A stretch of 64,000 nucleotides of DNA from assembly GCA_947184155.2 (NCBI GenBank), contig CAMXCT020005112.1:32501-96500 (forward strand), in the 5' to 3' direction. This DNA is from Cladocopium goreaui. Lineage: Eukaryota; Sar; Dinophyceae; Suessiales; Symbiodiniaceae. The translations under genes were made by a program, and so were the position numbers. The notes below the pieces were generated by a model. That model was not told the origin of the DNA. It saw nothing but the letters and a program-made list of their open reading frames with translations, and searched no databases. Below are positions 3,468 to 30,514 of the stretch, piece by piece; positions within the stretch are counted from its first letter, which is position 1; every line of letters starts with the position of its first letter.

Positions 3468-3571
3468 CTGGTTGGTGGTTGACCTACCCCTCGGAAAAAT
3501 GATGGAGTTCGTCACTTGGGAGGATGAATTTCCCAACTGAATGGAAAAATAAACATGTTCCAAACCACCAG
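3468..3571 (+). mobile_element. Family-1 inverted-repeat element, copy 1
   Basis: The copy begins CTGGTTGGTGGTT and ends CCAAACCACCAG. Internal landmarks are CCTACCCCTC, GAGTTCGTCA and a GGAAAAATAA stretch. It lies inside an intron of the minus-strand PPR gene. Confidence 0.85.
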
Positions 3572-4057
3572 TATCATATTATGACATATTGTGACCCTGT
3601 TATATGTGGAACATACCCCATTTCTACATGGCTCAGGGTTCCATCTCGAGCCGGTGCAAACATCAAGAACCACCGCAATTCCACGGTGCTAAATCCACCA
3701 ATGTCCTGGGATATTCTTTTTGATGCTCCTCCTTTTGACGTGTTTTTTGGGATATCACCCGTTAGTAACCACAGGAAACAAACAAAGCATCATCATCCCT
3801 GCATGGCAACCCAATCTTTGGTCAAATCCTTGTCTTTCTTCCTGAAAAAACACCACTTTTGAGGCTAAAATCGCCAGAAATTCTCCAGTAATTCTCCAGA
3901 CTAAATCACCAGTTTTGCAGCTGAATCAGCAATTAAAACTATGATGATAGGCTTATCCCCGTTACATCCCAAATTGGTTGGTGTAATTACCCGGTAAGTC
4001 CCCATCTAATCCAGTCAAATCCCAAACCAGGTCCGTATAGCGAAAACGTCAGGTGAC

Positions 4058-4153
4058 CACATTCGGTCGCCCCATCTGTGCGAAGATCTGCAGGGCGTGG
4101 CGCCAGGCCGTGGCTTTTTCACAACAGCTGAGGGCTGCGCCGAAGGTCACGAC
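4058..4153 (-). CDS. PPR gene exon (VVTFGAALSCCEK..W)
   Basis: The exon encodes VVTFGAALSCCEKAT, AWRHALQIFAQM and RPNV, a near-complete PPR repeat with the usual W..AL..F helix. Its 3' border GTG|GTCACCTG is supported by the in-frame join to 2884-2964. The 5' border is unusual: phase and consensus want the exon to begin at GTC (4153), one base before the position the visible CACAG acceptor would give. Confidence 0.78.
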
Positions 4154-4533
4154 TGTGGGAGAAAGGTCCTGGATTTTTGTGCCATGACCCTGGGGAATTG
4201 ACCCAAAAGGGCGATTTTGCGATGTTGTCAACCAAAGTTGAGTGCTCAAAAAATCGTGTTAAAACAAGAGCCATGTTGGACTAGAAAAAACATTGGACTT
4301 CAGTAACTTATGTGCTCAATTTACACCAGAAAATGACGAACTGGGTGCTTTAAACAAGAAAAATGAAGAGTTATTCATTAACACAGATTGGAGACGTTGT
4401 GGTTTTCTCAGCTAAGACGGAAATTGTTGGTTGTCCTGGGTCATGGATGATCCTTCAAAAAAAAAAAATATTTCCAAGGATTGCCATCGGGTCAAATGCA
4501 TGCTGCATCAATGTGCAATGGGCCCCCTAAAAC

Positions 4534-4865
4534 GGTTGGGTCCTGCATGGGAAGATGGTGGAAGAAACTTAGAGCTGGTTGCCAACATGCACCCTTGCCA
4601 TGTGAGCTGATGACGGCGTTCAGGGTGATGATGTTGGGCACCACATGCAGCTGGTTCATGTCTTGGCAGATTTCGAAGGCATGCTTCCACTGCCCAGCTT
4701 TCTCGCAAGTAGTGATAGCAGCACTGAAAGTGTACACGTTCGGCTGAACTTTAGTTTTTGGCATTTGTGCCAACAGCTCGCATGCATTGTGCCACCAGTT
4801 ATGTTGCGCATAGAAGGAAATCAACTTGGTGTAGTCTCGAACGTCGTACCGGGTACCCAGGGTAC
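4534..4865 (-). CDS. PPR gene exon with about three repeats
   Basis: This is the longest exon of the split PPR gene: 110 codons after two bases completing a codon. It covers DYTKLISFYAQHNWW, then NVYTFSAAITTCEKAGQW, then NIITLNAVISSHGKGACW, each followed by an A-L/F helix. The acceptor is AATCAGAG before GTACCC and the donor ACC|GTTTTA. The long form suggests it has not been divided by intron gain as its neighbours have. The frame stays open to a stop at 4492, so a terminal-exon reading is possible but less likely given the good junction to the next repeat. Confidence 0.8.
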
Positions 4866-5447
4866 CTCTGATTTGCGGGCGATTTTCGCCCCCATCTAAA
4901 ACGCTCATGTAAAACATCCATCTTTCAAACAAAGTTGGAATGTATCCAAAAATATGAAACCCAAAATCAGCTTGCGCCTCACTGTTAAGTCTTTGCCAGA
5001 AGCACGCTTCGGTTTACGTGTTGGCATTTCTTCCGACATTTCTTCTATTGTATTCTGACATTTCTTCCCACATTTCTTCCGACATGGCATTTCTTCTGAC
5101 ACCATGGGATGCGGTCCCAGATACCGTTGCAAGACTGCACCATGGCCCATCTGATCCCACCGCGTCATGGTGAACTCGAGCCGAGAGGGTCCGGAGGTCT
5201 CAAAAGTGGATGGGAAAAGTTCGATTTTATGAAGCCCAAATGGGATCAATCTTATCCATCCGGGGTATATATCCACCCAAGATTTGTCGGATGCGCAGGG
5301 CGCAAAAATTGGGGCTTCGACCAATAGATTATATGGGGTTCCCAAGGTATCCCAAGGTCCCAGTGATTTGAGCGCCAACAGGTACCACAAGGGGGTTCTG
5401 GGTAGGAAAGATGTGCTGCAAGGCGGAAAGTATGCAAAATCAATTTC

Positions 5448-5665
5448 GAACAAGTCGAAAAACGACAAGTCGAAAAGTGGAAAGGTTTCGTTTTGAATTT
5501 CAAAAAGTCGAAAAGCCGAAAAGCGAAAAGGTGTCTTTGTGAATTTCGAAAAGTCGAAAACTACCGTAAGAACGGGTTATTTTTAGATTTATTTTTAATT
5601 TCGGAAAGTCAAAAAGTTGAAAAGTATATTTTTTATCTGTTTCACTTTTCACTGTTTGACTTTTT
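5448..5665. repeat. Degenerate GTCGAAAA repeat tract
   Basis: GTCGAAAA, GCCGAAAAG and AAAAAGTC units recur irregularly for about 210 bases. Open frames here are rich in Lys, Ser and Phe and are judged repeat artefacts. Confidence 0.75.
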
Positions 5666-6856
5666 GATTTTTTACGGGATGCCTTTCCAGCTGAACACGC
5701 GCAGCTCTTTTTTCCAGCTTGGGAATTCCCGGGCAGCATCTCTCTTACTTTTGGAGTTGCTGTCTGAGTTCTTTCTGTGATGAATATCCGTGTTAATCAG
5801 AAATCAAGAAGCCAGCCCTGACTTGAAGGGCAAGGGAATTTCGATTGCTTCTCAAACAAGTGCACTTCAAATGGATGAACCCTAAGCAAATACAGAGAAC
5901 AAACTAAGCGGATAAGTCTGGAGACTGCCAGTCTATTTGGCCCATTTTCCAGTCCACACGGATGGTATTTCTCAGTCTCACGGCCATCGACAAAACCTAC
6001 AGCTACTGAGCACAGGTTGCAACCCTCATTGCACTTGGAACTGAATCATCTACCATTGCACCCAAAGTCAGTTCTAACTTCAAACAGTTAAACTTCACCT
6101 AATACACATAAAGGATCTTTCACTCCTATCTGGGTATGGGTCAGAAACCTGGTACATCTTGGTACCTTTAGCCGATATTTATGGATGTTCGCCCAAAAAA
6201 TATCCAAAACCATGGTCCAAAATATCTTCAGTTCCACGAATTCCAGGCGATCACCCCCAGGTGAAGCTGAAACTGCTCTGCAGCATGGTCAAGACAGGTT
6301 TCCCAAGTCATGGGGGTACCCCAAGCTCGCTGGATGGTTTATTTCATGAGCAATGCCAATCTAAAATGGATGATTTAGGGGCACCTCTATTTTAGGAACC
6401 CTCCACATCTCTATCTTAAAATATACCAATCGCTAGCATATGCCATGTATCTCAACAGTTTCCATTAGTATACATAGTACATTATCTCTATGAAACAATA
6501 GCATCCCTATTGCATGGTGAACTTTAGATATAGTAGGATTCAATGGACATTTTTATAGGATCTAATGGGATATATTAATATCTGATAATAAATCCGTTCC
6601 CTATGATTCAATGGGATGTTAATGTACATTAATGGCATCTGGTATCCAATATATTTAACATATGATATTCATATCTGATCTAATGGGATATATTAATATC
6701 TGATATAAATATCCGATATAAAGATCTAATATCTCTGCCAATGGGATATTAATATCTGATAATAAATAGTATCTATATTAAGGGCTATTGTTATATCCCA
6801 GGCTATTAACATCCCATTAGCCATTAGATCAGATTTATTTATATTATAATTGAGGT

Positions 6857-6967
6857 TACCCTCTGGTAAACTAACATATCTATTGAACATGGACCATAGA
6901 AATAGTTGATTTACCTATTAAAGATTAGTTGATTTTCCATGGTTCTGTAAACGTTTACCAGAGGGTA
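6857..6967. mobile_element. Family-2 TA-flanked inverted-repeat element, copy 1
   Basis: The copy runs from TACCCTCTGGTAAACTAACA to GTTTACCAGAGGGTA, 111 bp. The terminal inverted repeats are at least 14 bases, and the outermost TA on each side could be a target-site duplication. Confidence 0.88.
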
Positions 6968-7199
6968 ATCCATCACCCAGTGGATTTCATCAACTAACCC
7001 CCAGATCAGATTTATATCCCATTAGATCAGATTTATTTATATTATCATTGAGGTTAATATCTATCTTATAAATATCCATCCAATAAATCTGGTCTAATAT
7101 AAATTAGATCTCTAATGATAAATATCCCATAGATCCCTAATGACTTTAATATCTATCTTTATCTCCATCCAATCGGGATTAAGGTCCCCATCTTCGTTG

Positions 7200-7244
7200 G
7201 ACGCGCCGCTCGCAGGAACTCACGGCCGCGTTGAAGGCGATGAC
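7200..7244 (-). CDS. PPR gene exon (VIAFNAAVSSCER)
   Basis: The exon encodes VIAFNAAVSSCER and then a poorly defined end. The acceptor ACCGAG before GTCATC joins the exon at 8493-8601 in phase 0 to give LRSD|VIAFNAAV, exactly the PPR spacing. The 3' border is uncertain (GC donors at 7203-7207 are possible). Confidence 0.72.
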
Positions 7245-7519
7245 CTCGGTCAAACTCTCCGCCGAAATCATGGGAATTTCATGGGAAACTCACGGGATAT
7301 TAAGGGGATATTGATTGGAATACATGTTGGAATATTTTTTGTTGGAATATTTTCTGGAATAGTCATGGAATATTAGCGAATACTCTGATTACTGGAGGGT
7401 AAACATTTGAACCCATGGTATAGCGGGTGGTATATCGAAAAAAATGAGAGAACTATCAACTTGATAGCCGACAAACATCAGGTTTTGAATTTAGGTATCT
7501 ATAGATTCTTCAACAAATA

Positions 7520-7622
7520 CTGGTTGGTGGTTTTAATCATGTGGAAAAAATGAGTTCGTCAATGGGAAGGATTATCCCATATGAAATGGAAAATAAAAGT
7601 CATGTTTAAAACCACCTACCAG
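7520..7622 (+). mobile_element. Family-1 element, copy 2
   Basis: The copy begins CTGGTTGGTGGTTTTAA and ends AAACCACCTACCAG. Internal GAGTTCGTCA is kept. Orientation is the same as copy 1. Confidence 0.82.
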
Positions 7623-7981
7623 AATAGATTCCAAGATGGTTGACGGGTGCATTTTCCCAGTGAAATTGAGGATCTTCAAGAATTCTAACATGGAAAATCC
7701 CGTCGGTTTTTTCCGCTGGAATTTCGCCCTAGATCTCCATCCATCGCATCTATCATGCTAATTCAGTGATCCAGAACTATCCAGAGTATCATCACCATTA
7801 TAAGCCCAATAAAATCATCACAGTGTCATATATATATATATTCCATCATATTCCATCAAAGTCCAGCTATTCCCATGATAATTCCATAAATGGCTGGAAT
7901 ATAATGGAATAACATGTTATATATATATATAGTATGGCTGGAGGTTATCCCATGGTAATATATGGTATTGGGATATATAAT

Positions 7982-8070
7982 CTGGTTGGTGGTTGAGCCC
8001 TACCCCTCTGAAAACTGATGGAGTTCGTCAGTGAATGGAAAAATAATCCAAATGTTCGAAACCACCAAGC
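7982..8070 (+). mobile_element. Family-1 element, copy 3
   Basis: The copy begins CTGGTTGGTGGTTGAGCC and ends GAAACCACCAAGC. It is shortened in the middle, lacking the second arm of the internal GTTGGGA..TTCCCAAC hairpin. Confidence 0.8.
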
Positions 8071-8247
8071 AAAAACTATGGAACCACCCATTTTTCATAG
8101 GCAAAACATCAATAAATCTGACATTACTATGGATATATAAATGATGGGATCCACTATTTTATTATGGTTATGGGGATCTATCAATAAATGTCAACTATCA
8201 AATGCTATGTTGATAACCAAATGTCAACTATCAATAAATGACCTCCA

Positions 8248-8332
8248 TACCCTCTGGTAATTTAACATAGCTATGGAAAATCACCATGCTATTAATTAAT
8301 GGGAAAAACAACTATTTCTATGGCCATTTTCA

Positions 8333-8361
<29 letters not shown>
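8248..8361. mobile_element. Family-2 element, copy 2
   Basis: The copy runs from TACCCTCTGGTAATTTAACA to AGTTTACCAGAGGGTA. Its interior is the reverse complement of copy 1, showing that this family inserts in both orientations. Confidence 0.88.
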
Positions 8362-8363
<2 letters not shown>

Positions 8364-8389
8364 CATAACCAAAACCATATCCAAATGGC

Positions 8390-8442
8390 ATCATTAAATC
8401 ACCATTAAATCACCATTAAATCATCATTAAATCACCATATAA
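8390..8442. repeat. ATTAAATCACC short tandem repeat
   Basis: About five units of ATTAAATCAYC occur directly after the family-2 copy. A similar tract occurs at 12126-12190 before a family-1 end. Confidence 0.8.
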
Positions 8443-8492
8443 ATGATCCCCATAACCATAAAAGCACCATATCCAAATGCCATCCACGTGAC

Positions 8493-8601
8493 ATCGCTTC
8501 GCAGCTTCGCTCCCTCCATGGCCGTCAGCACTTCGAAGGCCTGGCGCCAGGCGCCGAGGCGTTCGCAGGAGCTCAGGGCGGCGCAGTAGCTGACGACCGT
8601 C
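8493..8601 (-). CDS. PPR gene exon (TVVSYCAALSSCERLGAW)
   Basis: The exon of 109 bp holds one full PPR repeat: VVSYCAALSSCERLGAW, RQAFEVLTAM and KLRSD. It begins after CCTAG with the G that completes CC|G from the exon at 9604-9734, giving LEP|TVVSY. It ends in phase 0 at GAT|GTCACG. Both junctions restore the consensus. The upstream intron needs a GA donor. Confidence 0.85.
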
Positions 8602-9603
8602 CTAGGGGATTTTCTTGGGGACGTATCATATATAATTATAGGGACTAAGGACTTATCCATATTAGGGATTATCCATATTTCATTTGTCAGGGACTCATCA
8701 TTTGATGGGGATATGTTTTTTTACCTGACAGGGGAAAACATGCTGGATTTCATATGGTTTAATGATGTTGAATGGGAGGACTTATGAAATATAATGAATG
8801 GTTTAATTTCATAATCCCATTATAATCCCATTTCATTGAATGGGAGGACTTATCCATGGGATTACACTCACCTAAAATGGGGAAACGGAAAGGTTGTTCA
8901 ATGATATTGGATGGGATTATAATGGGATTATGCTTTCTAATTAAGTACCAGAAAATGGAACATGTAGGGATATGTCGCGGGATTTTGATCAGCAAAAACA
9001 TGGAACACAGGGTTTTTAATGGGATTTACCAATCATGCATGGATTCTTGTAGGATTTTGACCGTCAAAATTGGAAGAAATCGGATTTTACCATATTGGAC
9101 CACGCAGACTAGGATGTAACCATCGACAATAGTGACTCCGCCAGCAAAAAATGGGGATTTTAGTGGCAAAAAATGTGATTTACCCAGCAGCTGCGATGAT
9201 ATTCCAACTGATGGGGGTTCACCATGATGAAAGATCCGGGAGTGAACCCGAAGCTGCACCCAGCGAACATAGAGATAGAATGGGATAGACCTACTGCATG
9301 GCTCAAGCAACAAGAAACTGGCGACAAAAACACAACAGCATAGCAGAATAGGAACACTCTGGACATGAAATCTGAAGCTTCAAGAATAGGTTTCAACCAA
9401 CAAGTCAGGGAATTTCACCAATGATAATGGGGATTGGAATTGACACCATTTTTCATACTTAAATATGTTTACATGATGTTAAATGATACTTGTGCATGGT
9501 GAATCAGCAGGAAACACCAACATGTTATGAACGTGAACGAATTCAAATGGCCATTTGTGAACGAACTTTTCGCTTCCATCCCGTGTTTGCATGGCCAGGT
9601 GTC

Positions 9604-9734
9604 GGTTCCAACTTGGCATGACCCATGCTTCGAAGCACGCCAAAGGCTTTGCGCCGTTGGTGGCCCTTCTCACAAGCGCTGATGGCAGCGTTGAAACTGA
9701 TGACATCCAGCTGGAGGTCTGAGAAAGACAGCAC
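9604..9734 (-). CDS. PPR gene exon (DVISFNAAISACEKGHQ)
   Basis: The exon of 131 bp carries VLSFSDLQLDVISFN, AAISACEKGHQRRKAF and SMGHAKLEP. The acceptor CCTCAG joins 10256-10385 in phase 0 to give ALSFFE|VLSF. The 3' end CC|GACACC is a GA donor whose GAC recurs at the start of the next exon. Confidence 0.86.
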
Positions 9735-10255
9735 CTGAGGGAGGGATCCCAGTAACCAATCGTACAGTGGGTCACTTTACATGATGCCAGGGGGAATTAT
9801 GACCATTGTAATACCGTTATGATACCATCATTAAATTATCAGAAGTGACAAATAAATAAAAAATATGAAATGTTATGATACTTCATAAATCAATGATGGT
9901 ATCATTGTAATACCGTCATACAATACAACGGTATTAGCGTTATGATTATATTCCCAAACTTCAGAAGTGTTAATTTGGGATGGTTCAAAAGTTCAACGGT
10001 TGGTTTTTTGTTGGGTTCAGCAGTTTTGGAGGTGGCAACGGTGTGACCATGCATGTCGTGAGGGTTTCAATTACAAAGTACCAGCATACATACTAATCAA
10101 CAGAATTGAGGATCTCAGTATCAAAACCTGAATCAAACTGAGACTGATTAACCAACAAAACTGTTTGATGTGTTGCAACTAGGACAACTGGACAACTTGG
10201 GATTGATTTGATGAAGTTGATGAAGTGTGGATAAATTTCTGACGATTTGACCCAC

Positions 10256-10385
10256 CTCGAAGAAGCTCAAAGCTCGCTGCCATTCCCTGGCCTTTTCGCA
10301 AGAACTGATGGTGGAGTTGAAGGAAATGAGATTTGGCTGAACCGCTGCTTCTGGCATAGCTTCCAGTAATCTCAAGGTCTCTTTC
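10256..10385 (-). CDS. PPR gene exon (NLISFNSTISSCEKAREW)
   Basis: The exon of 130 bp encodes ETLRLLEAMPEAAVQPN, then LISFNSTISSCEKAREW and RALSFFE. The acceptor is ACCCAG before GAAAGAG and the donor GAG|GTGGGT. Its first base completes a Trp codon from 10813-10866, restoring EW|KETLRLLEAM. Confidence 0.86.
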
Positions 10386-10520
10386 CTGGGTTGACCCGAC
10401 CACTGCCCCAAAGTTGGCTCGGCACATCGAAGTTGTCGTCATTTCCCAATCAATTTCGTTGGGGGGTTCATAGCAGAAACATGACCAACATGTACCAACA
10501 ATCAGATACGCTAGCTTGTT

Positions 10521-10644
10521 CTGGTTGGTGGTTTTAACATGTTGTAACCATCTTGAAAAATGATGGAGTTCGTCAATCGGAAGGATGACATCCTCAATAT
10601 TTTTTCATGGAAAAATAATCCAAATGTTCCAAACCACCAGCCAG
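10521..10644 (+). mobile_element. Family-1 element, copy 4
   Basis: The copy begins CTGGTTGGTGGTTTTAAC and ends CCAAACCACCAGCCAG. It is slightly longer than the others through a T-rich insertion near 10600. Confidence 0.85.
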
Positions 10645-10659
10645 TTTTGGGATGGCTAA

Positions 10660-10757
10660 TTTTGTCAACTTTGGAAAATCACCATCTATTTATTGGGTAA
10701 ATCCACTATTTCTATGGCCATTTTCTATGTCGCAAACTCTTAGTTTACCAGAGGCTA
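10660..10757. mobile_element. Family-2 element, copy 3 (partial)
   Basis: The interior GAAAATCACCATC..GGGTAAATCCACTATTTC and one terminus (AGTTTACCAGAGG) are present, but the other terminus is missing. It adjoins family-1 copy 4, suggesting nested insertion or deletion. Confidence 0.75.
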
Positions 10758-10812
10758 ATTTGGAAAAAAACGACCAGGTCTGTGGTTCGATCTACAGATT
10801 TGACCAAGAGGC

Positions 10813-10866
10813 CACTCGCCACACTTCTCACAGGCACTGATAGCGGCATTGAAACTGATCACATTC
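10813..10866 (-). CDS. PPR gene micro-exon (NVISFNAAISACEK)
   Basis: This 54-bp exon encodes NVISFNAAISACEKCGE plus two bases of Trp. The acceptor TTCCCAG precedes GAATGTG. It joins 11228-11310 as CC|G (Pro) and 10256-10385 as TG|G (Trp). The first join needs a GA donor upstream and the second a GC donor (GAGTG|GCCTCT). Confidence 0.82.
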
Positions 10867-11227
10867 CTGGGAAGCCGAGCTGGAAGGTTTCAGTCGGTTC
10901 GATTGGATTATCTCCTGATCAGCCTGGTCCAATTCTGGGATGGTGGGGGATTGAACGTGGTGGATCAAGTTAGCACAAACGGAGCTTTAAACCATGACAT
11001 TACATGGAAGTATCTGGCAAGGGATCTGAGAAACGGAACTCGGGATACATCAAAAACCATGTTGTTGGTTGATAGATACATTACATAGATATTTATATTG
11101 AAAAACAACATAGATAGTCTTTATATACAAGATATTTTAACATTTTCTATATACTATAATATACATAGATATTTATAACTATACAGCCATCACATATTGA
11201 AAAAACACCTGTTGTTAGCCCAGCTTC

Positions 11228-11310
11228 GGCGGCACTTCGCTAGCCATGGACCAAAAGAGGCACAGAGCCAGCTGCCATTGCCCCGACTTCTCGCAGGCAC
11301 TGATAGCTGC
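11228..11310 (-). CDS. PPR gene exon (AAISACEKSGQW)
   Basis: The exon of 83 bp encodes AAISACEKSGQWQLAL, CLFWSM and EVP. The acceptor GCTGAG precedes GCAGCT, and the same six bases GCAGCT follow the upstream exon at 12332. It ends CC|GAAGCT, a GA donor whose GAA recurs at the start of the next exon. Confidence 0.84.
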
Positions 11311-11551
11311 CTCAGCTTGAAAGATATCCCTTGGGATATGGCCATTAAGTGCATGGTAAGGTAGGGATATTCTAAAGGGACAGCTATTAATGTCTATTAA
11401 AACATATAATATCTGATAAGATGGGGATATCCCGAAAGGATAACTATTTGAAATCAAACATCATCAACAACATGATAGTTATCCCTGGCTACAGTATCTT
11501 TGTCTTGTTTTTTGTTGTGAATACAGTGATTATCAACTATTAGGACGATTG

Positions 11552-11592
11552 ATGATGATGATGATGATGGTGATGATGATGGTGATGATGAG
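11552..11592. repeat. GATGAT trinucleotide repeat
   Basis: A run of about 13 GAT/GGT units in an intron. Confidence 0.85.
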
Positions 11593-11985: not shown

Positions 11986-12101
11986 CTGGTTGGTGGTTGA
12001 GCCCTACCCCTCTGAAAAATGATGGAGTTCGTCAGTTGGGATGACATTCCCAACTGGATGGAAAAATAATCCAAATGTTCCAAAACCACCAACTCAACCA
12101 G
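11986..12101 (+). mobile_element. Family-1 element, copy 5
   Basis: The copy begins CTGGTTGGTGGTTGAGCC and ends AAACCACCAACTCAACCAG. The internal GTTGGGA..TTCCCAAC hairpin is intact. A detached family-1 end (CCAAACCACCAACCAG) lies at 12191-12209 after an ATTAAATCATC tract. Confidence 0.87.
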
Positions 12102-12331
12102 TCATTAATATTCCATTCCCAGAGGCTTAATCACCATTAAGTCACCATCAATATCCCTATTAAATCATCATTAAATCATCATTAAATCATGTTCCAAACC
12201 ACCAACCAGTTATCTAATTCTACTTCTTTATGGTGAAATCCCATGATAATCCCATGAAACCATGATCTAATTCTTTGGGGGTGTTTCAGTATTTCACTAC
12301 CTTCTCCCCATCCAAAGCTCTACCGAGCTGC

Positions 12332-13933: not shown

Positions 13934-14047
13934 TACCCTCTGGTAAACTCACAGTTCGCTATTGAACATGGCCCAGTCGAAATAGTGGATTTTCCCATTA
14001 AACATTAGGTGATTTTCCAGTTCGCTATGTTAAATTACCAGAGGATA
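13934..14047. mobile_element. Family-2 element, copy 4, with adjacent fragment
   Basis: The copy runs from TACCCTCTGGTAAACTCACA to AAATTACCAGAGGATA. A TA microsatellite and a detached terminus (ATTACCAGAGGGTA, ending near 14080) follow, so one copy seems to have been broken by expansion or insertion. Confidence 0.85.
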
Positions 14048-16740: not shown

Positions 16741-16847
16741 CTGGTTGGTGGTTGAACCTACCCCTCTGAAAAATATGAGTTCGTCAGTTGGGATGATGAC
16801 ATTCCCAACTGGATGGAAAAAAAAACATGTTCCAAACCACCAACCAG
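16741..16847 (+). mobile_element. Family-1 element, copy 6 (best preserved)
   Basis: The copy begins CTGGTTGGTGGTTGAACC and ends CCAAACCACCAACCAG with 13-base terminal inverted repeats. The reverse strand contains CTGAC followed 17 bases later by ATTTTTCAG, resembling a branch point and 3' splice site. Confidence 0.92.
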
Positions 16848-18186: not shown

Positions 18187-18189
18187 CTG

Positions 18190-19211
18190 AAAAAAGTGGC
18201 TGAATGAACTATGGTTTATGGTAGATATAACAATAGTATAACTATAGTTAGTGGGGGTTATTTCTTGGTTTAACAAGAATCTTTGGATGTTAATACTACA
18301 GATCATCCTTGGTGTTTTTTTCGTGAACAACGCTGGGTTTATCCTCTGTCTAAGATGATCCCTCGAGGTGTTTAGAATCATCCTAGGATCATCCCTGGGT
18401 GTTTATAGTAGTGAGCAAGCCAAGGGATTTGTCATCCTAGGCTGAATCGTAGGTGTTAAAGAATCATTGGTAGATAGCATATGATAGCATCCTAGGGTTT
18501 GGGAACCATGAGATATTTCCTATTTATATAATCGTGGGATTTTTTATTATGAGCAACAGATGGAATTATCGACTTAGCAACTGTACCCACATAAAATAAG
18601 TACAAACTGGGATATATATATATTATTGCTGTCAGTAGCTAACGTTATGATTCTATGATTAACATTACAATCCAGGATCTCACCCTTCTATATTGGATTT
18701 GCTCTGGAACCCCCGCAATATATGACAGATTCCTTGTAGATTCACATGTTTCAGCTGGTGGCCCAAATCCAAACCCATGCACCATCGATTCCCACGTATG
18801 AGAGACCCCACATCAGCGAAGTGTCGGGCAAAACACTCAGCAAAAATAGGAAGGTGGTTGAACTTATCGGTTAATTTTGGCGAAAATGGCTTGAAGGGAA
18901 AGAGGTATGTTATAGAGTTGGTGTCAAACGCTTTGCCCTGCGGTGACTGCCAAGATTTCTCAAATCACTTCAAACATGACTATGACAATGACGACTGTGA
19001 GAACAATGACCATGATGTCGAAGAAACATCGGTCATCCTTCACCAATCCCACAGATCCCTGTGGTAAACGTTTACATAACTATGGAAAATCACCATGCTA
19101 TTCATGGGTAAATCCACTATTTCTATGGTCATTTTCTATAGCAAACTGTTAGTTTACCAGAGGGTATCCCATCTTTTTTGGCCGTCTTCGTTTTGAGCCC
19201 ATCCAGGTGAC
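18190..19211. other. Intron stretch, one exon probably missing
   Basis: PPR spacing requires a segment between the exons at 19.2 and 18.2 kb. A minus-strand FEKSWQSPQG at about 18940-18985 is a weak candidate. The rest is AT-rich and contains a family-2 element. Confidence 0.35.
19056..19166. mobile_element. Family-2 element, copy 5
   Basis: The copy runs from TCCCTGTGGTAAACGTTTAC to AGTTTACCAGAGGGTA. The left terminus has a base change in CCCTCTGG. Confidence 0.82.
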
Positions 19212-19297
19212 TGGAGATGTGCTAGGAGCATGTCATCGAAGAAACTCATGGCCCGTGGCCAGTGACTGGCAGCCATGGCTACGTTGTAGTGGATGAC
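19212..19297 (-). CDS. PPR gene exon (VIHYNVAMAASHW)
   Basis: The exon encodes VIHYNVAMAASHWPRAM, SFFDDMLLAHL. The acceptor GCTGGAG precedes GTCATC and joins VQPK| of 20043-20132 in phase 0, with GTC repeated at both borders. The 3' border (CCA|GTCACC) is tentative because the next exon was not found. Confidence 0.76.
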
Positions 19298-19362
19298 CTC
19301 CAGCTCAACCAGCACGGTCAACTGGGGCCAGCAAAACTGGTAAAACAACAGCCAAATCCCAT

Positions 19363-19411
19363 CTGGTTGGTGGTTAATGGTGGTTAATGATGGTTAATGA
19401 TGGTTAATTAA
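19363..19411. repeat. TTAATGATGG minisatellite seed beside family-1 ends
   Basis: A family-1 start (CTGGTTGGTGGTTAA) runs straight into four 10-base TTAATGRTGG units and then into a second family-1 start at 19412. It is a short version of the array at 24525-25145. Confidence 0.8.
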
Positions 19412-19505
19412 CTGGTTGGTGGTATACCTATCCCTCAGTTCGTCAGTTGGGATGATGACATTCCCAATATATGGAAGAACAAATGTTCCAAACTACCAAT
19501 CAACC
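19412..19505 (+). mobile_element. Family-1 element, copy 7
   Basis: The copy begins CTGGTTGGTGGTATACC and ends AAACTACCAATCAACCA, a diverged terminus. The internal GTTGGGATGATG is kept. Confidence 0.82.
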
Positions 19506-21086: not shown

Positions 21087-21193
21087 CATTGACTTGTTTT
21101 TTTCTATCATGTTACAACATATACCATTTTCAATGGGTAAATCCACTATAAATCACCATTTTCAATAGCTATGTTAGTCATTACCAGAGGGTA
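21087..21193. mobile_element. Family-2 element, copy 6 (left end lost)
   Basis: The interior GGGTAAATCCACTAT and the right terminus TTACCAGAGGGTA are present; the left terminus is not recognisable. Confidence 0.75.
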
Positions 21194-21359
21194 GATTGTA
21201 AGGAACCCTCGTTTTTACCATCAAAAACTGCCGTAAACCCTTCCCTTTCATGCCTGGGCCAGTCCTAACACTTCCTGAGTGCTCCGAGGATCTCCGAGGC
21301 TCCGAGCCGGCCGAAAGCAATGCCTCCGGCGTGGTGAGCAAGCAATACCTCCAGCACAG

Positions 21360-21467
21360 TACCCTCTGGTAATGACTAACAGTTTGCTATTGAAAATCAC
21401 CATTTATAGTGGATTTTCCCATTAAACATTGTGATTTTCCATAGTTATGTTAAATTACCGGAGGGTA
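21360..21467. mobile_element. Family-2 element, copy 7
   Basis: The copy runs from TACCCTCTGGTAATGACTAAC to AAATTACCGGAGGGTA, 108 bp. Confidence 0.88.
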
Positions 21468-21783: not shown

Positions 21784-21882
21784 CTGGTTGGTGGTTTCAA
21801 CCCCTCTGAAAAATATCAGTCAGTTGGGATGATGACATTCCCAATATATGGCAAAATCAAAATGTTCCAAACCACCAACCAG
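21784..21882 (+). mobile_element. Family-1 element, copy 8
   Basis: The copy begins CTGGTTGGTGGTTTCAACC and ends CCAAACCACCAACCAG, 99 bp, with perfect terminal inverted repeats. Confidence 0.9.
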
Positions 21883-22581: not shown

Positions 22582-22686
22582 TACCCTCTGGTTATTTAAC
22601 ATAGAGCCTGAAAATCACCAATTTTTAATGGAAACTAGTCTTCCAACCCCTATCTGCCAGGGTCTATGCTAGTTTACCAGAGGGTA
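22582..22686. mobile_element. Family-2 element, copy 8 (diverged interior)
   Basis: The termini TACCCTCTGGTTATTTAAC and AGTTTACCAGAGGGTA are good, but the central 40 bases differ from the other copies. Confidence 0.82.
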
Positions 22687-23912
22687 TAACCAACCAAAGT
22701 CAAGATGCGTTTTGCTTCAGTAAGAAATACGGAGATTTTCACGATTTTCACCTGGCCAAATCCAAGTGGCAGCACAGCCGCGTTGGCATCATCGTGGATG
22801 CAATGAAGCCTCAAGATCAAAATTCAGAAGATGAAGACACGAAAGCACCTATACACATGTGATAAGTTGTGTATGGGAAATACCCCAATGATAAAAATAT
22901 AGATATCGATACTACTGTAAGCACTCTAAGCACTCTAAGCCTGTATATCATAAGATAATTACATGTATGGGTTTGCCTCTTGTCTAAAAGTGGAGGATAT
23001 GCTTCTAGCATAACCATTGAATAGTGCAGAACATGATCAACCATGGCATGGAATGTGGTTCCAAAAAATTGATGTTATCCCTTTTCACCACAGGTCACCC
23101 TTGCCAAAATGACCAATCAATTGCAGGATTTTGGGTTCCCGACATTTATAGAGAACCTCTATCAAAGACGGACAACAACACTTTCCCCTGTCTATCCCAA
23201 GTGCGGTTGCTAAATATCCCAAATTCTGGTGGCTTATCCTCCAATTGACCCTGAAGATAGAGCATTTTTAGTAGAAACAAATCTTCCAACCCAAAGTCAT
23301 GGCAGGGTTGTCACGTTCACTGTATACCCAATGGTCTCCCGCAGAAGTTGCCATGCAAAGGCACAGGCGGTTGCTGGCCCAAGCCTTCAGCTCGGGCAAA
23401 CCATACCTGAGCCACTTCGAATTGCGGAGAATGTGGTTATGGATCAATACCTATACATACCATTTTTAGTGGGATGAACATCCATTTACCAGCTATTTTG
23501 ATGTTCACCAGGGGTACACGGTTTTGACACACTGCCATGTTGGTCCACGGGTGAACTCAAATCCAATGGTTGATCATCGGGATTTCATCTAATGAAGGCC
23601 GAGAACAGAATGATCCTTTTCAATCTTTCACTTTTCAAAAGGATCCTTGACCATGAGTTTGAGTGGGCTCTTTGCTCCTTCCAGCCCTTGTCAGCATTAT
23701 TTCAAAACTTCAAAGCATCATCACTACCAATCCCCAAACTCAGACCAATTTCCACCATCAATTTGCACCCTGGACTGTCATATGGAATCCACCAAATTTC
23801 CATTTCCCACAGGACAATTTCTTTCCAAACCCACAGAATTGTCATCCAGTTTTCTGTTGATGACCCTTTCATTCAATTTTCAATGACACACCCCCAATTT
23901 TTCATGATACTG

Positions 23913-24021
23913 TACTGTCTGGTAATTTAACGTAGCTATTGAAAATTGCCATAGAAATAGTTGGCTTACCCATTAAAAATGATTGATTTTTCATGTTTTT
24001 TTGTATGTTTACCAGAGGGTA
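23913..24021. mobile_element. Family-2 element, copy 9
   Basis: The copy runs from TACTGTCTGGTAATTTAACG to ATGTTTACCAGAGGGTA. Confidence 0.85.
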
Positions 24022-24109
24022 AAACCTATCATCCTTATTTTTGTTGATGACTCTTTCACTCAATTTTCCATTGCACATCCGGTTTTTCATCATAAGGCCT
24101 TCCATTTTT

Positions 24110-24204
24110 TCCCCAGCTTCTGCGTTTCCAGGTGCTGAACGCAAAAACTCAGCAATTGCCACAGTTCCCGGCCATCCATCGACACGTCGCTGACTGAACC
24201 CGAC
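24110..24204 (-). CDS. Exon-like island, frame ambiguous
   Basis: The island follows a CCCAG acceptor. One frame reads SMDGRELWQLLSFC and resembles a PPR helix pair; a second reads VAIAEFLRSAPGNAEAG. The phase of the preceding exon does not settle which is used. Confidence 0.4.
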
Positions 24205-24408
24205 CTGGGAGGGACCAACAAAAGGTTTCGGGAAAGTTGGGAATAATAGATGGAATCTTTAATTTTCAATTATTATTGTGAATAAACAAATCAGACAACA
24301 ATCAATTTCGAGTTGAAAACAGTGTCCGATGTCATCCAGTTTTAAATCGGATTTTCCGTTATAAACCAACCATTTTGATCCATGTTTTGGGTCCTTCCTG
24401 GAAGACAC

Positions 24409-24483
24409 CCAGTTGTCTCCGAGCGACAGCAAGGCAAAGGCTTCCTGAAGCACCCGCGCACTGCGGCAGCAGTCGGGGGCCAC
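24409..24483 (-). CDS. Exon-like island (VLQEAFALLSLGDNW)
   Basis: Exactly 25 codons lie between a CTGATCAG acceptor and a GG|GTGTCT donor, reading APDCCRSARVLQEAFALLSL. The helical, Ala/Leu-rich character fits an alpha-solenoid N-terminal part of the PPR protein, but no PPR motif is visible. Confidence 0.5.
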
Positions 24484-24524
24484 CTGATCAGACAAATTGG
24501 AACATGAACCAACCAATGGTTTAG

Positions 24525-25145
24525 TGATGGTGGCTAAATAATGGTGGTTAATGATGATTAATGATGGTTAATGAGGGATAATGACGGTTAATGATCGTTC
24601 ATGATGGTTGATGATCGTTCATGATGGTTGATGATCGTTCATGATGGTCCATGATGGTTAATGATGGTTCATGATGGTTCATGATGGTTGAGGATGGTTA
24701 ATGATGGTTAATGGTGGTTACTGATGATTCATGATGGTTCATGATGGTTAATGGTGGTTAATGATTGTTGATGATGGGTAATGATGCTTAATGATGGTTA
24801 ATGATGGTTAATAATGGTTCATGATGGTTCATGATGGTTAATGGTGGTTAATGGTGGTTAATGATGGTTAATAACAGTTAATGATGGTTAATGGTGGTTA
24901 ATGATGCTTCATGATGGTTCATGGTGGTTAATGGTGGTTAATGATGGTTAATGATGATTAATGATGATTAATGATGGTTAATGAGGGATAATGACCGTTA
25001 ATGATGGCTGATGATCGTTCATGATGGTTCATGATGGTTAATGATGGTTCATGATGGTTCATGATGGTTGAGGATGGTTAATGATGGTTAATGATGGTTA
25101 ATGGTGGTTAATGATGATTCATGATGGTTAACGATGGTTAATGAC
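24525..25145. repeat. 10-bp minisatellite (TTAATGATGG / TTCATGATGG)
   Basis: About 60 imperfect units of TT[A/C]ATGATGG, with GTGG, GAGG and ATCG variants. The array stops 12 bases before family-1 copy 9 and its unit resembles the GGTGGTT element end, so it may have grown out of an element terminus. Confidence 0.95.
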
Positions 25146-25156
25146 CATATGCAAAA

Positions 25157-25265
25157 CTGGTTGGTGGTATACCTACCCCGCTGAAAAACATGAATTAGTC
25201 AGTTGGGATTATGAATTTCCCAACTGGATGGAAACATAATCCAACTGTTCCAAACCACTAACCAG
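25157..25265 (+). mobile_element. Family-1 element, copy 9
   Basis: The copy begins CTGGTTGGTGGTATACC and ends CCAAACCACTAACCAG. The hairpin GTTGGGA..TCCCAAC is intact. Confidence 0.88.
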
Positions 25266-25269
25266 ATAA

Positions 25270-26550
25270 TGATGGCAAATTATGGCAAATTACGGTTACT
25301 GATCTTAAACAATGGCAACAATGGTTTGTAGTGGTCGCTATTTATAAGTAACCATCATTAACCATCATCAATCATTAACCATCATAAACCTATGGTTACT
25401 TATGGTTACTCATGGTTAACCGCTATCATGTGCGGAAACCCTTTGTGGCTGCCGTGGCTGTTGGGAATGGTGGGATACCAATGGCTCCGTCCTAACAGAA
25501 GTAGATGTGGTAAACCACCAAAAAAAATCCCGCAATTTGCCAGAAATGGGTTGTATATGGCGCGAATACTTGAAGATTATGGGGATATACAGTACAGGTA
25601 CCGGGGATATGAAGCAATTTATGTCATATGAAAGCAACCATAAGAAGTGAGTACAGGAAGTGGCCCCGGAAACGTTACATTTATTGGAATTCAACCACCA
25701 AACATTTTGATTGAATCTGGAATTCAAGCACCAAACTTGTTGATTTAATCAACAACAATATATGATTTGCAGTTAATCTACGATTCGTAAGCGAATTGAA
25801 GCAAGAATATATGGATGGGTGGACGCAAACCATAACTTGGAGAACCCTTTCTGTATGGGTGCACGAAAGGATTTTTGTTGTTATTTGTGATAGCAGTTAT
25901 AACTTCCGTTTTGCTGTTGTTGGTTTGCTTGCTCCATTATATGGGTATAAGTCACAATTATGACCACCTCCTATTAGAAGGACTAACATGACCTGTCGGG
26001 TCATTTGGCCTTGACACAAATTTTGACAACTAATCACATCTGAATATGCATGTATCGGCGTGTTCCAAAAAGCAAAAGTTGAAACTTGAATGGCGAAACG
26101 ATGCTCAAACATTGTACGGAGAGCGACTGAACAGGCTTATTTGAGCCAATGATAACACCAGGAAGACATATGTCCAAAAGAAACAACATCAACACATCGC
26201 AATAATATCATGATATCATGGAGGTAAACCACCCAATTGTAAGCAAAAAATCATTGCAGCTATAAACGCTTCTTGCATATGTGTATAGAGACTAATATAT
26301 AATTCCACATGATATAAGTGGGGTATTTCCTATTTATAGAACTGGATTCTAGCCATGGCCAGTATTGGACATGTCGAATTCAGATTACCAACATCCTACA
26401 GTACCAGAGTAACCATCCAGTTGGTTTACCCAGCCTTCAAGGTTTGAGGCTGTCGATCTGGCTGCGCCCTGCCCGCTGACTTTGAAACAAACAACTGGGA
26501 GATATGGAAGTGTAGTGGTGAAACCCAGAATCAGAAAAATCAGCACACAT
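25270..26550. other. Gene-free AT-rich stretch
   Basis: No convincing exon. The open frames at 25392-25727 overlap on both strands, have no splice-bounded GC-rich core and are not supported. A minus-strand island near 26440-26480 (QRAGRSQIDSL) is too short to call. Confidence 0.5.
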
Positions 26551-26553
26551 TAT

Positions 26554-26651
26554 CCAATTGGTGGTTTCAACCCCCCTGAAACATATTAGTCGGATTGGAT
26601 CATCATCCCAACTATTGGGGAAAATAAAAAATGTTCCAGACCACCAACCAG
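26554..26651 (+). mobile_element. Family-1 element, copy 10
   Basis: The copy begins (C)AATTGGTGGTTTCAACC and ends CCAGACCACCAACCAG, so the left terminus is mutated. A TATATA run follows directly. Confidence 0.82.
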
Positions 26652-27117
26652 GTATGTATATATATATATATAATATATATATATATACTTGAGATGGTTG
26701 AATAAGGAACACTTGGGGATTGAACCAGCTAACGCGTGGGCTTTCCCCACAAGGTCTGTCTTAAAATGGATACACTGAATTTTCAATGTTTCGTCGTAAG
26801 TGGATAGTGGGAAAAGCACGATAAACCACGGGGGTTGGGGCGGCCTGGCACAATATTTTCAGACAAGCCATCCAACAAAGAGAAGGATACAACTTGGTAC
26901 AGCCATCATGAAGTGATAACAACCACCCTCCTAAAAAAGGTGAATCCCCCATATTGGCTGATTAACAAGCCTTAACTCCTGGCTGAAGCGCTGGGAAAGC
27001 TGCAGCAATGAGCTTCGACAGCTAAACCCTGGCGTCTGGAAAGAACATGGCATCCGGGCATCCGAGGATGGAAATTTGGGGATGCATCCAAACCTCTTGG
27101 GGGATAAACATCCGCAA

Positions 27118-27226
27118 CTGGTTGGTGCTTGAGCCCTACCCCTCTGAAAAATATGAGTTAGTCAGTTGGGATGATCAAATTCCCAATATAGGGAAAATAA
27201 AATTCATGTTCCAAACCACCAACCAG
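27118..27226 (+). mobile_element. Family-1 element, copy 11
   Basis: The copy begins CTGGTTGGTGCTTGAGCC and ends CCAAACCACCAACCAG. Confidence 0.88.
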
Positions 27227-27925
27227 ATAAACATCCATTTTGGGGAGAGCAGAAGGATACCAGGGTTTTGCCTCCCCATTTTTCAGTTGACACAAAAACT
27301 TGTAGTAAGCGTATGAACATTTCCATATTTGCTGATGAAATCATGGTCATTTTTGTTGCAAAAATTCACATCATGTCGCATCCCAAGCTTTTGGTACTTC
27401 AACCTTGGTATTTGCTGGTTGGCTCCCAATTTTGTTGCTTGACACATCTTATTTGTTGCTTCGATTCGCATTTACTTCACATCTACTTAGGTTTGTAAAA
27501 AAAAACATTGGGTTCATAGGTCATCTATACCGCAACCTTGCCTTTATGAGCAAGTTGTTGCGCCAATCACTAGGAAGGCCCCCTCCAGGTATGTTTGTCA
27601 GTTTATGTTACCTCATCTAACTACAATGATATTCATCACCGCCAGTCCATCCGCTACCCTGGTCATTGCAGCCAGCTTAGCTTATGGACAGCCATCTTGT
27701 AGCTGGATTGATAGCTATCACCATACTATCCTTACATCACGATTTTTGCTGCTAAATTACCCATAATGCTAGCTGCAGTAGGTTCATTTGATTCTATTCA
27801 ACCACATTAACCATGATTAAACCTCACCAAAACCATTGAAACCAATGAATCCCACATTTTTGACTGTGTTTCTTTCTTCTCCTCTCCCACTGTTTCCGAC
27901 TGAGACAATGAGGCCCCCGGCTCAC

Positions 27926-27967
27926 CACTTTGCCCTGCACTTCATCCTGCGGCCAGCACGCCACCAG
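27926..27967 (-). CDS. Micro-exon candidate (LVACWPQDEVQGKV)
   Basis: Fourteen codons lie between an AATGTAG acceptor and a strong GTG|GTGAGC donor. Composition is GC-rich against an AT-rich background. Too short for a family assignment. Confidence 0.35.
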
Positions 27968-28249
27968 CTACATTGGTGGAACAGTTCCAACTATATAGGA
28001 ACCCCAAGTCATAGCAGCAATAATTTAGATATTATATATAATCCTGGTTTCGCACTCTTCTTGGCAATTGTGCATTTTTTTTGCTGGGTTACTGTAAATG
28101 TATAGATAATTTTTGACCAACCAAGCAACCAACACGTGAGTATGGGGCAAGCTTGGGTCAGAATGTGTGGATGCAGCTAAAGACAACTACAAGTAATTAC
28201 AAGCAAGCAAATGGGGATTCAAACCACCAACTGTAGTACAAAGACTATT

Positions 28250-28362
28250 TACCCTCTAGTAATGACTAACAGTTTGCTATTGAAAATTGCCATAGAAATA
28301 GTGGATTTACCCATTGAAAACGGCGATTTTCCATAGTTATGTAAACGTTTAACCAGAGGGTA
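28250..28362. mobile_element. Family-2 element, copy 10
   Basis: The copy runs from TACCCTCTAGTAATGACTAAC to GTTTAACCAGAGGGTA. It sits only a few bases downstream of the putative transmembrane exon on the minus strand, so its TIR provides the first possible splice donor after that exon. Confidence 0.88.
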
Positions 28363-28365
28363 AGA

Positions 28366-28790
28366 CATGTTAAGAATAATACAGCTTGTGCAGCAACGCT
28401 GAGAAGCAGAACACAGGCACAAACCGTAATCCAAGCCAAAGCAAAGTTCGTCAGTGTCGCTTCCTTCGCTTCCGTTGGCTCCACAGCATCCGACACGTCG
28501 GAAAACAGTTCCCCATCATTTTGGGTTTGCACAACACCTTCAGGTGGAAGAAAATCAGGGAACCAAGACGTGGATTGACCTCCTTTCGGGAATCTTCAAT
28601 CGGGCAGGTTCCTTTCCTCCCAGGTGTCCCAAGTGGTGCCATACGTCTGTCCTGTCCAGCCCGGAGATACGAGCCAAAAAACCCGACAGTCGCATTTGCC
28701 GGGGATATCCCAATTGCTGAGCAACTTTTCGGAAACCATGGATTGCCTACGGTCTCTTCTGGCATCCAAGCATCTCATTTTTTCGGACAC
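28366..28790 (-). CDS. Candidate membrane-protein exon(s), interrupted by TGA
   Basis: One minus-strand frame is open from about 28790 to 28366 except for a TGA at 28596-28598. Upstream of the stop it reads CRVFWLVSPGWTGQTYG and WDTWEERNLPD. Downstream it reads an acidic stretch (QNDGELFSDVSDAVEPTEA) and then a hydrophobic helix (ALAWITVCACVLLLSVAAQA), a likely transmembrane segment. The TGA may lie in a small intron or mark a decayed gene. The overlapping 208-codon plus-strand frame is judged an antisense shadow. Confidence 0.45.
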
Positions 28791-29337
28791 TGTACAGCAT
28801 TTTGTGCAATACCAAAATTACTGACCGAACAAACAAATCATGGGGACAAGAAACAAACGAAGAAAGCACACACAGCAAAGTCCACTGTGATGTTTCAAAA
28901 AAACACCACAGATGCAAGCAACGAAGCTTGGGGGCTGCTGTACTCCTCAGAGTTTGGACTTCGAAAAAACGACCAGAAGGCCTGGAGTTGGTCATTGGGT
29001 TTCCACCAGTAGTTGATGAACTCTTCGGTTTTGCTGGTTTCAATTTCCTTTATTCTATATGTATACATGTATGTATACATGTATGTATATATATATATAT
29101 TCATTCATTTCTTTTCTGATGGGTGTTTCACCAAGTTGACACATCACCGCAGTTTCACCCACTTAGATGGGCCATGGAGTTAGTCACAGAAAGATCAACA
29201 AGGCATACGTTTCGGCATCTCTCTGGGTAGATTGCCATATCCCACTTAGTACATGGGCTATATCCCCAGTTATGTAAGTAATGTTATATATATGAGCAAT
29301 CGGCAAAACCTCAATTGAAAAATGCGATCTCGGGTCA

Positions 29338-29377
29338 AAGTTATCGTTTTTGGGACTTCACTATATCGTTTTACAGT
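29338..29377. repeat. Dispersed repeat, also at 30253-30291
   Basis: The block GTTTTTGGGACTTCACTATA plus TCGTTTTACA recurs at 30253-30291, about 0.9 kb away in the same orientation. It is not obviously part of families 1 or 2. Confidence 0.8.
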
Positions 29378-29599
29378 AAATCCTGATTGCATCATTTGCA
29401 TCCCCTGGCAAACTGCGTGCGGAAAGCCTTTTTACACCCCCACTTCAGCGTCTGAAGCATCTTTGGCTGCCCCGCGCTTTCTTTTGCAGCGCTCCAACTG
29501 TATGGTATGGTAGCATTCACTCCCCAGCGTCTGGGTAGCAAACCATCAACATGGTCCAATGCTTTTGCCTTGGCTATCTTCATCTAGGAGAAAGATCGC

Positions 29600-30405
29600 C
29601 AAACCGGACCTGCAGGTGCAGGTGTGCCGGTGTGCCCGAGATGAGCCAGGATTGACTAAAGCAACGGAGCGTCGCAAAAAAAAAGAATATGCATAGCAGC
29701 GAAAAGATCGCAATAAGCAAGTGATAATATTCAACGGCAAAGAATCATCTCAAGAATCTTTTCGCATCTGGGCCATCCATCAGCGAAGGACATTTTGTCA
29801 AGAAAAGGTTATCGTTTAGTTATTGTTTTCGTTATCGTTCAAAGAGGGAAACATTTTTGGAAAATGGCATGAACCAAGGAATGTTGGAAAGGAGGCCTGT
29901 TGTCATCGTCAATGCTTGCATGAAAGCGGGAAGATACAAAACGCTCATCCGGAAGGCTTGAACAATGGCGAGACAAAAAGAGCATCCAAATCCAGCTAAT
30001 TAGTTACCACATACTGTAGCAATACGTGCTTGGATACAAAACTGTTTGCAATAATCAGAAAAAAAGAAATTGGCCAGGATCAAGAGTGTCAGCATACTTG
30101 TGCACATCTTCCGTTGTGTGAGCTGGTCATGACGTATACCCCACAACTGAGAGCCTAGATGATCTAGATGCTTCTAGAACAGGTATCCACCATCATGTCA
30201 TGTACACCACCCCTTCACTTCCCACAATGCTTTTACATATGATATGATTCCCACGTTATAGTTTTTGGGACTTCACTATATCGTTTTACATATCAAGATG
30301 TATATTTTTACATGAAAGATCGCTCGAATACATACCTCCTACACGGAGAGTTTAGCCTCTTGCTCATATATATATATATATACACATATGGATAATATTG
30401 GATAA
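29600..30405. other. Gene-free stretch
   Basis: No convincing exon. A minus-strand frame at 29392-29583 ends in TGA and could be an exon tail, but no splice border or family supports it. The rest is AT-rich with one copy of the dispersed repeat. Confidence 0.45.
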
Positions 30406-30411
30406 TTATGG

Positions 30412-30514
30412 CTGGTTGGTGGTTTTAACCATCTTCAAACATATTAGTCAATGGGAAGGATGACATCCCATATATGAAATGGAAAATACAAATCATGTTC
30501 CAAACCACCAATCC
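30412..30514 (+). mobile_element. Family-1 element, copy 12 (rightmost)
   Basis: The copy begins CTGGTTGGTGGTTTTAACC and ends CCAAACCACCAATCC, a diverged right terminus. No further copies were seen to the right in the window. Confidence 0.84.

Follow-up and report, generated by a model that had tools for sequence, protein, structure and literature searches.

A short inverted-repeat transposon of Cladocopium goreaui with a non-random orientation and a splice-like module

Twelve elements of one orientation in a window with a PPR gene

The window analysed here is a 64-kb stretch of the C. goreaui genome (contig C5108, positions 32501-96500; GC 36-47% per 2 kb, as would suit the lower-GC group of Symbiodiniaceae in PMC11114475) whose minus strand carries the exon cores of a pentatricopeptide-repeat (PPR) gene from 2.9 to ~20 kb, the upper ones weak, and which is populated by two families of short inverted-repeat elements, hereafter family 1 and family 2 (Table 1). 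Both families are dense at 3-31 kb, while neither gives a profile match at E 1e-4 in positions 31000-64000. A profile built from the family 1 elements scored strongly at exactly 12 places in the window, every one on the minus strand (E 2.4e-32 to 3.3e-18), in agreement with a first-pass annotation of this DNA that had described 12 elements in one orientation; opposite-strand echoes aside, the next match (E = 0.005) is the far end of an internally expanded copy. With 2 mismatches allowed, the window has 62 sites resembling the terminal inverted repeat (TIR) CTGGTTGGTGG, versus 20.1 ± 4.7 in shuffles, and Rfam gave no window match above its gathering score.

The elements are thus real, but less uniform in their ends, length and inner motifs than that annotation had described. 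Both ends are exact, at a spacing of 60-90 bases, in only two of the 12 copies (16741 and 21784) and lie within 2 mismatches in nine, one of these solely as the 224-bp expanded copy, while one end is decayed in the copies at 3468, 19412 and 26554. The branch-point-like CTGAC that had been ascribed to the elements is found, as YTGAC, in 10/12 copies and is absent from the other two; TTTTCA(A)G is found in 7/12, and one or both of these splice-like motifs are gone in 5/12. A start of CTG|GT and an end of CAG had also been read on the gene strand, but they carry no information on orientation: the ends are inverted repeats and the pattern is true of both strands. Because the TIRs are symmetric, orientation is readable from the asymmetric interior alone.

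For 12 of 12 copies in one orientation the two-sided probability is 1/2048 given independent insertions, matching the earlier estimate of about 1 in 2000. Independence is indicated by flanks that differ between copies and by exact 4-bp target-site duplications (TSDs) at 4/12 of them. Uniform orientation could also arise had PPR exon-intron units, each already holding an element, been copied by segmental duplication, and the host is indeed a repeat-protein gene in a window with tandem repeats. We rejected this explanation on the differing flanks and TSDs and consider it extremely improbable, as family 2 has mixed orientation in the same introns and the family 1 bias is present on many contigs.

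Short tandem arrays lie directly beside family 1 ends from 24429 towards 25157 (10-bp unit TGATGGTTAA), at 19363-19411, and near position 3791 of the fetched stretch L007, as if TIR-adjacent sequence seeded minisatellites.

Table 1. Elements of the two families and exon cores of the PPR gene in the window (TSDs are written for the plus strand)
Feature	Position	Strand	Remarks
Family 1 element	3468..3574	-	gene-strand 5' TIR decayed; YTGAC and TTTTCAG lost
Family 1 element	7520..7622	-	TSD AATA; 3' splice-like AG lost
Family 1 element	7982..8072	-	both splice-like motifs kept
Family 1 element	10521..10644	-	within ~427-bp intron of PPR gene
Family 1 element, internally expanded	11986..12209	-	core 11986-12100; TSD TTAT at 11986/12209
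Family 1 element	16741..16847	-	exact TIRs at both ends; both splice-like motifs
Family 1 element	19412..19505	-	TTTTTCAG lost; decamer repeat expansion and second TIR copy 19363-19411
Family 1 element	21784..21882	-	exact TIRs at both ends; TSD TGAT; both motifs
Family 1 element	25157..25265	-	both motifs; adjoins 10-bp tandem array
Family 1 element	26554..26651	-	one TIR decayed; motifs altered
Family 1 element	27118..27226	-	both motifs
Family 1 element	30412..30515	-	TSD ATGG; AG lost
Family 2 match	6857-6967
Family 2 match	8248-8361
Family 2 match	10667-10757
Family 2 match	13934-14047
Family 2 match	19057-19166
Family 2 match	21124-21193
Family 2 match	21360-21467
Family 2 match	22582-22686
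Family 2 match	23917-24021
Family 2 match	28250-28362
PPR exon core	2884..2952	-	lowest core found
PPR exon core	4549..4794	-	adjoining repeats
PPR exon core	10340..10384	-	joins 10812-10865 over intron with 10521 element
PPR exon core	10812..10865	-	upstream of intron with 10521 element
PPR-like exon core, weak	19220..19300	-	8.5 bits

Transposon anatomy and genome-wide orientation

Family 1 is a non-autonomous DNA transposon, a miniature inverted-repeat transposable element (MITE), of ~105 bp with a 4-bp TSD and tens of thousands of copies. Typical copies are about 90-124 bp long and non-coding, in keeping with MITEs generally, which are short, non-coding elements with TIRs, a TSD of fixed length and very high copy number. 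Beyond the window, the analysis drew on 200 kb fetched from contigs C2 and C3 as 20 stretches of 10 kb chosen around listed copies (together with the window, the 264-kb set), and on searches of the whole assembly (1,165,616,438 bases in 6,202 contigs), for which the lists of places hold the first ~100 matches per pattern in contig order and are not a random sample of the genome. In the 264-kb set the flanking 4-mers are identical in 14 of 59 near-full-length copies, versus 1.42 expected when the flanks are re-paired, with no more than 7 in any of 2000 shuffles. The match fraction was 0.53 at length 4 versus 0.28-0.35 at the other lengths tried, and these 59 copies showed no excess of flank matches at lengths 2, 3 or 5 to 9. 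The excess at 4 bp therefore points to insertion by staggered cutting with a 4-bp target duplication.

The 21-base 5' end matches 42,740 places in the genome within 2 mismatches (reversed control, 3), and 17,127 copies have both ends exact at a spacing of 60-90 bases. As the 5'-end test is passed by 7/12 window copies and by 44/59 overall, scaling the 42,740 places by these rates puts the family very roughly at 57,000 to 73,000 copies. Mean identity between copies is 78%, with a median nearest-neighbour identity of 91%. Folding of the consensus as RNA gave a TIR stem with almost no compensatory change (any in 4/19 predicted pairs), and the clearest inner compensatory pair tracks a split into two subfamilies. 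One locus (G000:C3:581582-581764) holds four family 1 5' ends on one strand, 53-56 bp apart, as a tandem array of partial elements. An IMG/VR match was dismissed, as it covered a 20-mer of an AT-rich contig and was not part of a full element.

Orientation is conserved between neighbours well beyond the window. Family 1 copies no more than 20 kb apart agree in 42/45 pairs of the 264-kb set. Three exact inner k-mers have 708, 790 and 197 genome copies, and among the 300 listed copies used for the neighbour test, neighbours agree in 39/39 cases within 50 kb, 67/69 within 100 kb and 102/108 overall. The 100 listed exact 5' ends comprise 2 plus then 33 minus copies on C2, 33 minus on C3, 8 minus on C4, 14 minus on C5 and 10 plus on C6, with one strand change within a contig, over a 219-kb gap on C2, and no isolated flip among these consensus-like ends. 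Single-strand runs reach about a megabase. Two of the 62 copies in the fetched and window sample are opposed. On C2, the copies at 1472567 and 1484033 go against 33 others in a run from 641 to 1,656 kb. The orientation of listed copies with both ends exact was read by eye, the profile check being confined to fetched copies. The bias holds in every listed part of the genome, and the equal genome-wide orientation that the first-pass annotation had named as evidence against its own proposal was not seen; the bias of family 1 is not due to chance.

Family 2, a MITE of similar size with inverted repeats and the ends TACCCTCTGGTAA ... TTACCAGAGGGTA, possibly making TA duplications, served as a control from the same stretches. 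It too is of high copy number (1,316 genome copies of an exact 42-mer), but its ends differ and its orientation is not locked: the 10 window matches fall 5 per orientation, neighbours in the 264-kb set, measured as for family 1, agree in 46/97 pairs (32/72 with clear strand calls only), and among the first 100 listed 42-mers neighbours agree in 9/13 cases within 50 kb, 10/21 within 100 kb and 17/35 overall. Family 2 orientation is thus random. A screen of 12-mers (words in at least 6 stretches with at least 8 occurrences) returned no other strongly strand-skewed interspersed word, with one exception. Across stretches L002-L021 and window positions 2801-31000, all 43 occurrences of ATCCCACTAAAA are on the sense strand; they fall in only 6 stretches, and the word is probably a local tandem repeat.

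Element strand was next compared with gene strand, the latter taken from PPR, ankyrin and kinase codon motifs and from dynein exons on many contigs; reversed-pattern controls for the codon motifs gave 30 matches versus 933, 49 versus 957 and 1 versus 89. The count excluded the rows on contig C1, which looks bacterial (2 PPR, 10 kinase), 38 kinase rows on contigs past C2223 and 19 of 32 dynein rows, mostly on contigs past the element lists, C5921 being handled apart; runs were thinned on C298 (23 rows to 2), C319 (7 to 2) and C358 (7 to 2). A listed element lies within 100 kb of 29 of the 146 gene clusters, and in 26 of these the element and gene strands are the same. Clusters with at least 2 matches or with kinase or dynein motifs agree in 13/13 cases. 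Read directly in the sequence, the element lies on the gene strand for 12/12 copies in the window PPR gene, 2/2 in a dynein gene on C5921 and 1/1, a partial copy, in a dynein gene on C224; family 1 is thus dispersed among genes, with many contigs listed. The 134 ubiquitin-hydrolase rows, many of which resemble transposon or array frames, were kept out of the main cluster count, and those on contigs up to C2224 were compared separately afterwards, agreeing with element strand in 3/4 cases within 100 kb and 4/6 at any distance. In stretch L002, a weak EF-hand exon (E = 0.005, under the Pfam cut-off) lies on the plus strand, as do both elements there. Pfam searches of 20 fragments (10 short exon candidates, then 10 including long frames) named few genes; a 49-residue exon in L009 may be USP7-like.

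Such single-strand runs resemble the unidirectional gene blocks that the available parts of PMC9412976 describe in this dinoflagellate group. The same parts report transposon genes opposing their block without expression evidence and co-oriented ones that are expressed, which fits a strong role of block polarity.

Two observations concern the contigs searched. Contig C1 (at least 6.9 Mb) is in no contig-ordered family 1 listing, yet has ten kinase-motif matches, and is probably a bacterial contig in the assembly. C3806, C3549, C1226 and C2877 each hold several similar ubiquitin-hydrolase frames of ~600 codons, and the 20 loci fetched at these contigs contained no family 1 copies.

The splice-like module and the place of copies within introns

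On the gene strand of family 1, YTGAC and TTTTTCA(A)G are among the best-conserved interior blocks: in 47 aligned copies, the interior runs of at least 4 positions at 90% conservation or more are AACAT, TGAC and ATTTTTCA, shorter isolated ones also existing. TGAC followed by a T-run and AG has the look of a branch point and 3' splice site, and the gene-sense strand, judged from its sequence, appears to carry a branch-point/pyrimidine/AG module resembling the 3' end of an intron. For comparison, 96% of C. goreaui acceptors read AGG according to the available text of PMC9412976.

The copies themselves do not behave as introns where they can be placed. PPR model positions 3-20 (10812-10865) and 21-35 (10340-10384) close in frame losslessly if the ~427 bp between them are spliced, in which case this intron would use a GC donor. 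Both the family 1 copy at 10521-10644 and the family 2 copy at 10667-10757 lie inside the 10385-10811 stretch. The 10521 copy is therefore an inner part of a longer intron and not an intron itself, and splicing of this copy on its own is not supported, since the PPR cores join losslessly once the whole of 10385-10811 is removed. The remaining window copies are likely to be passengers within PPR-gene introns as well. The copy at 3468 lies ~500 bp from exon cores on each side, and no recognised exon core lies within 1.5 kb of the window copies above 21 kb. The 60-bp flanks of 61 copies have a mean GC of 0.36 versus 0.49-0.70 in PPR exons, and none of these 61 is clearly exonic; they are the sample on which the other counter-evidence named by the first-pass annotation, an exact intron match in no copy at all, was examined. 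One of them, L016:4635-4739, is ambiguous: its flanks are GC-rich and, once joined, remain open in a single frame, while its TSD is AATA and no protein is recognisable.

These placements bear on whether the copies could be Introners proper, which would have landed in exons, taken a TSD starting with G as 5' splice site and ...CCAG as 3' splice site, and survived in sense orientation only. The orientation rule is what such an origin predicts, and the anatomy (4-bp TSD, TIR and, here as a splice-like module, a carried 3' splice site) is that of the Symbiodinium microadriaticum Introner as set out in the available parts of PMC9860276. A family 1 intron would, as in that Introner, need its 5' splice site from the target duplication, but 0/14 exact duplications begin with G on the sense strand; moreover, in copies with TTTTTCA(A)G an AG falls well before the element end. 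Together with the position of the 10521 copy and the AT-rich flanks, this makes the explanation improbable. The first-pass annotation had proposed either selection for splicing out or an orientation-dependent origin; of its reading, the non-chance bias and the conserved splice-like module are supported, and splicing of the copies themselves as introns is not.

By anatomy family 1 is nevertheless Introner-like, and dinoflagellate Introners with TIRs and 4-bp duplications are already published (PMC9860276, as far as available). S. microadriaticum Introner family 1 shares with the present family a dinoflagellate host, TIRs, a 4-bp TSD and a sense-strand 3' splice site (putative in the present family), and its example coordinates span 115 bp, a similar length; the two are likened here by description, not by sequence identity. 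That text describes its copies as introns flanked by exons, the TSD supplying their 5' splice site, whereas the placed copy here is inside a longer intron. The same source lists TSDs in 49/130 and TIRs in 72/177 Introner families, neither being required (Gozashti et al. 2022, PMC9860276). The Introners of Polarella glacialis and other dinoflagellates, in the accessible sections of a review (PMC11453091), are likewise high-copy, intron-linked transposable elements of related genomes, reported as intron-creating insertions, unlike the placed copy. The introner elements of Amoebophrya (Farhat et al. 2021, PMC7789003) have, in the portion available, inverted repeats of 8-20 nt and direct repeats of 3-5 nt and are tied to introns, as here, but are defined at the boundaries of non-canonical introns, and no family-specific inverted-repeat motifs were found there. 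In the literature searched, which held few subscription papers, we found no report of strand-locked, intron-resident MITEs. Family 1 differs from MITEs as a class in that, to our knowledge, none is locked to the transcribed strand.

Candidate causes of the bias, and a neighbouring PPR frame

A DNA transposon would not be expected to keep to the sense orientation inside introns, as family 1 does. Intron creation by Introners is ascribed to the splicing out of exon insertions; the sense rule observed here covers copies in non-coding DNA that need no splicing, in long runs. Introns would be expected to obey such a rule, but passengers within them would not.

We tentatively prefer, at not quite an even chance of being right and slightly ahead of purging by selection, that the polarity of the target sets orientation during insertion or shortly afterwards, through transcription or a co-directional replication fork. 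This is favoured because isolated flips are lacking among the listed ends, the locked runs are long and family 2 is unlocked in the same stretches. Such polarity would most likely come from transcription, whether by a transcription bubble, by an R-loop or by an asymmetric transposase-end complex recruited during elongation, or else from a co-directional replication fork. With strand-locked insertion, a splice module on one strand would suffice to make an exon insertion removable, and we propose that the module is conserved across subfamilies, though useless inside introns, because exon hits can then be removed.

Several observations weigh against an orientation fixed at insertion. Three gene clusters disagree with element strand, all of them single PPR-motif matches and the one on C87 with an in-frame stop, as does a ubiquitin-hydrolase frame at C2:355971, which has a plus copy 45 kb away. 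Codon scoring, a crude and unvalidated measure, was tried twice; on the second occasion the element strand scored higher in only 11 of the 20 fetched stretches, which amounts to no support, and the top scores belonged to frames that are transposon-like or of low complexity. The opposed copies stand unexplained, and the argument that young copies are no less biased is weak, the exact 21-mer being a poor clock. Transcription and replication polarity are inseparable in these data. We know of no conventional DNA transposon with TIRs and TSDs that has such a strand preference, and unselected Sleeping Beauty and piggyBac insertions show relatively weak orientation bias in the accessible text of PMC3983033.

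There is an appreciable chance, if below even and slightly smaller, that insertion is unbiased and antisense copies are instead purged by selection. In an exon, an antisense copy would leave the pre-mRNA without coherent splice signals; in an intron, it could pair with sense copies in the same transcript or bring cryptic signals, and in a large population a slight cost would be enough for its removal. That the splice-like module is on the sense strand only and conserved across subfamilies is consistent with purging, as is the lack of bias in family 2, and the available part of PMC3983033 attributes strong orientation bias among tumour insertions mainly to selection. AATAAA occurs on the antisense strand of 21/59 copies and on the sense strand of none, but the surrounding DNA shows no avoidance of it on its sense strand (89 versus 101), and a poly(A) signal was accordingly rejected as the cause of the bias. 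Purging is further opposed by copies in non-coding surroundings, where neither orientation needs splicing, by the 5/12 window copies that persist despite lost module motifs, and by the long single-strand runs, within which few intergenic copies could have escaped selection in either orientation.

Two possibilities thus stand, that the polarity of transcription or replication guides insertion, or that antisense copies in introns are selected against much more strongly than one would expect, and each of these would alter the explanation of intron gain in dinoflagellates. If orientation is indeed fixed at insertion, strand-locked insertion would be the precondition for a one-stranded splice module, turning a MITE into an intron-making element. 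That integration reads target polarity, so that the tens of thousands of copies are a record of which way transcription (or the fork) runs along megabase gene arrays, is possible though doubtful. In draft genomes, family 1 could be used to mark the strand of unidirectional gene blocks.

Beside the intron-rich PPR gene, positions 55062-56909 of the window (minus strand) hold an unbroken PPR frame (615 codons, ten full repeats of 35 residues each), a possible retrogene; of the 120 relatives listed for its protein, most that bear a name come from dinoflagellates, Symbiodinium, Polarella, Cladocopium, Durusdinium and Effrenium among them.

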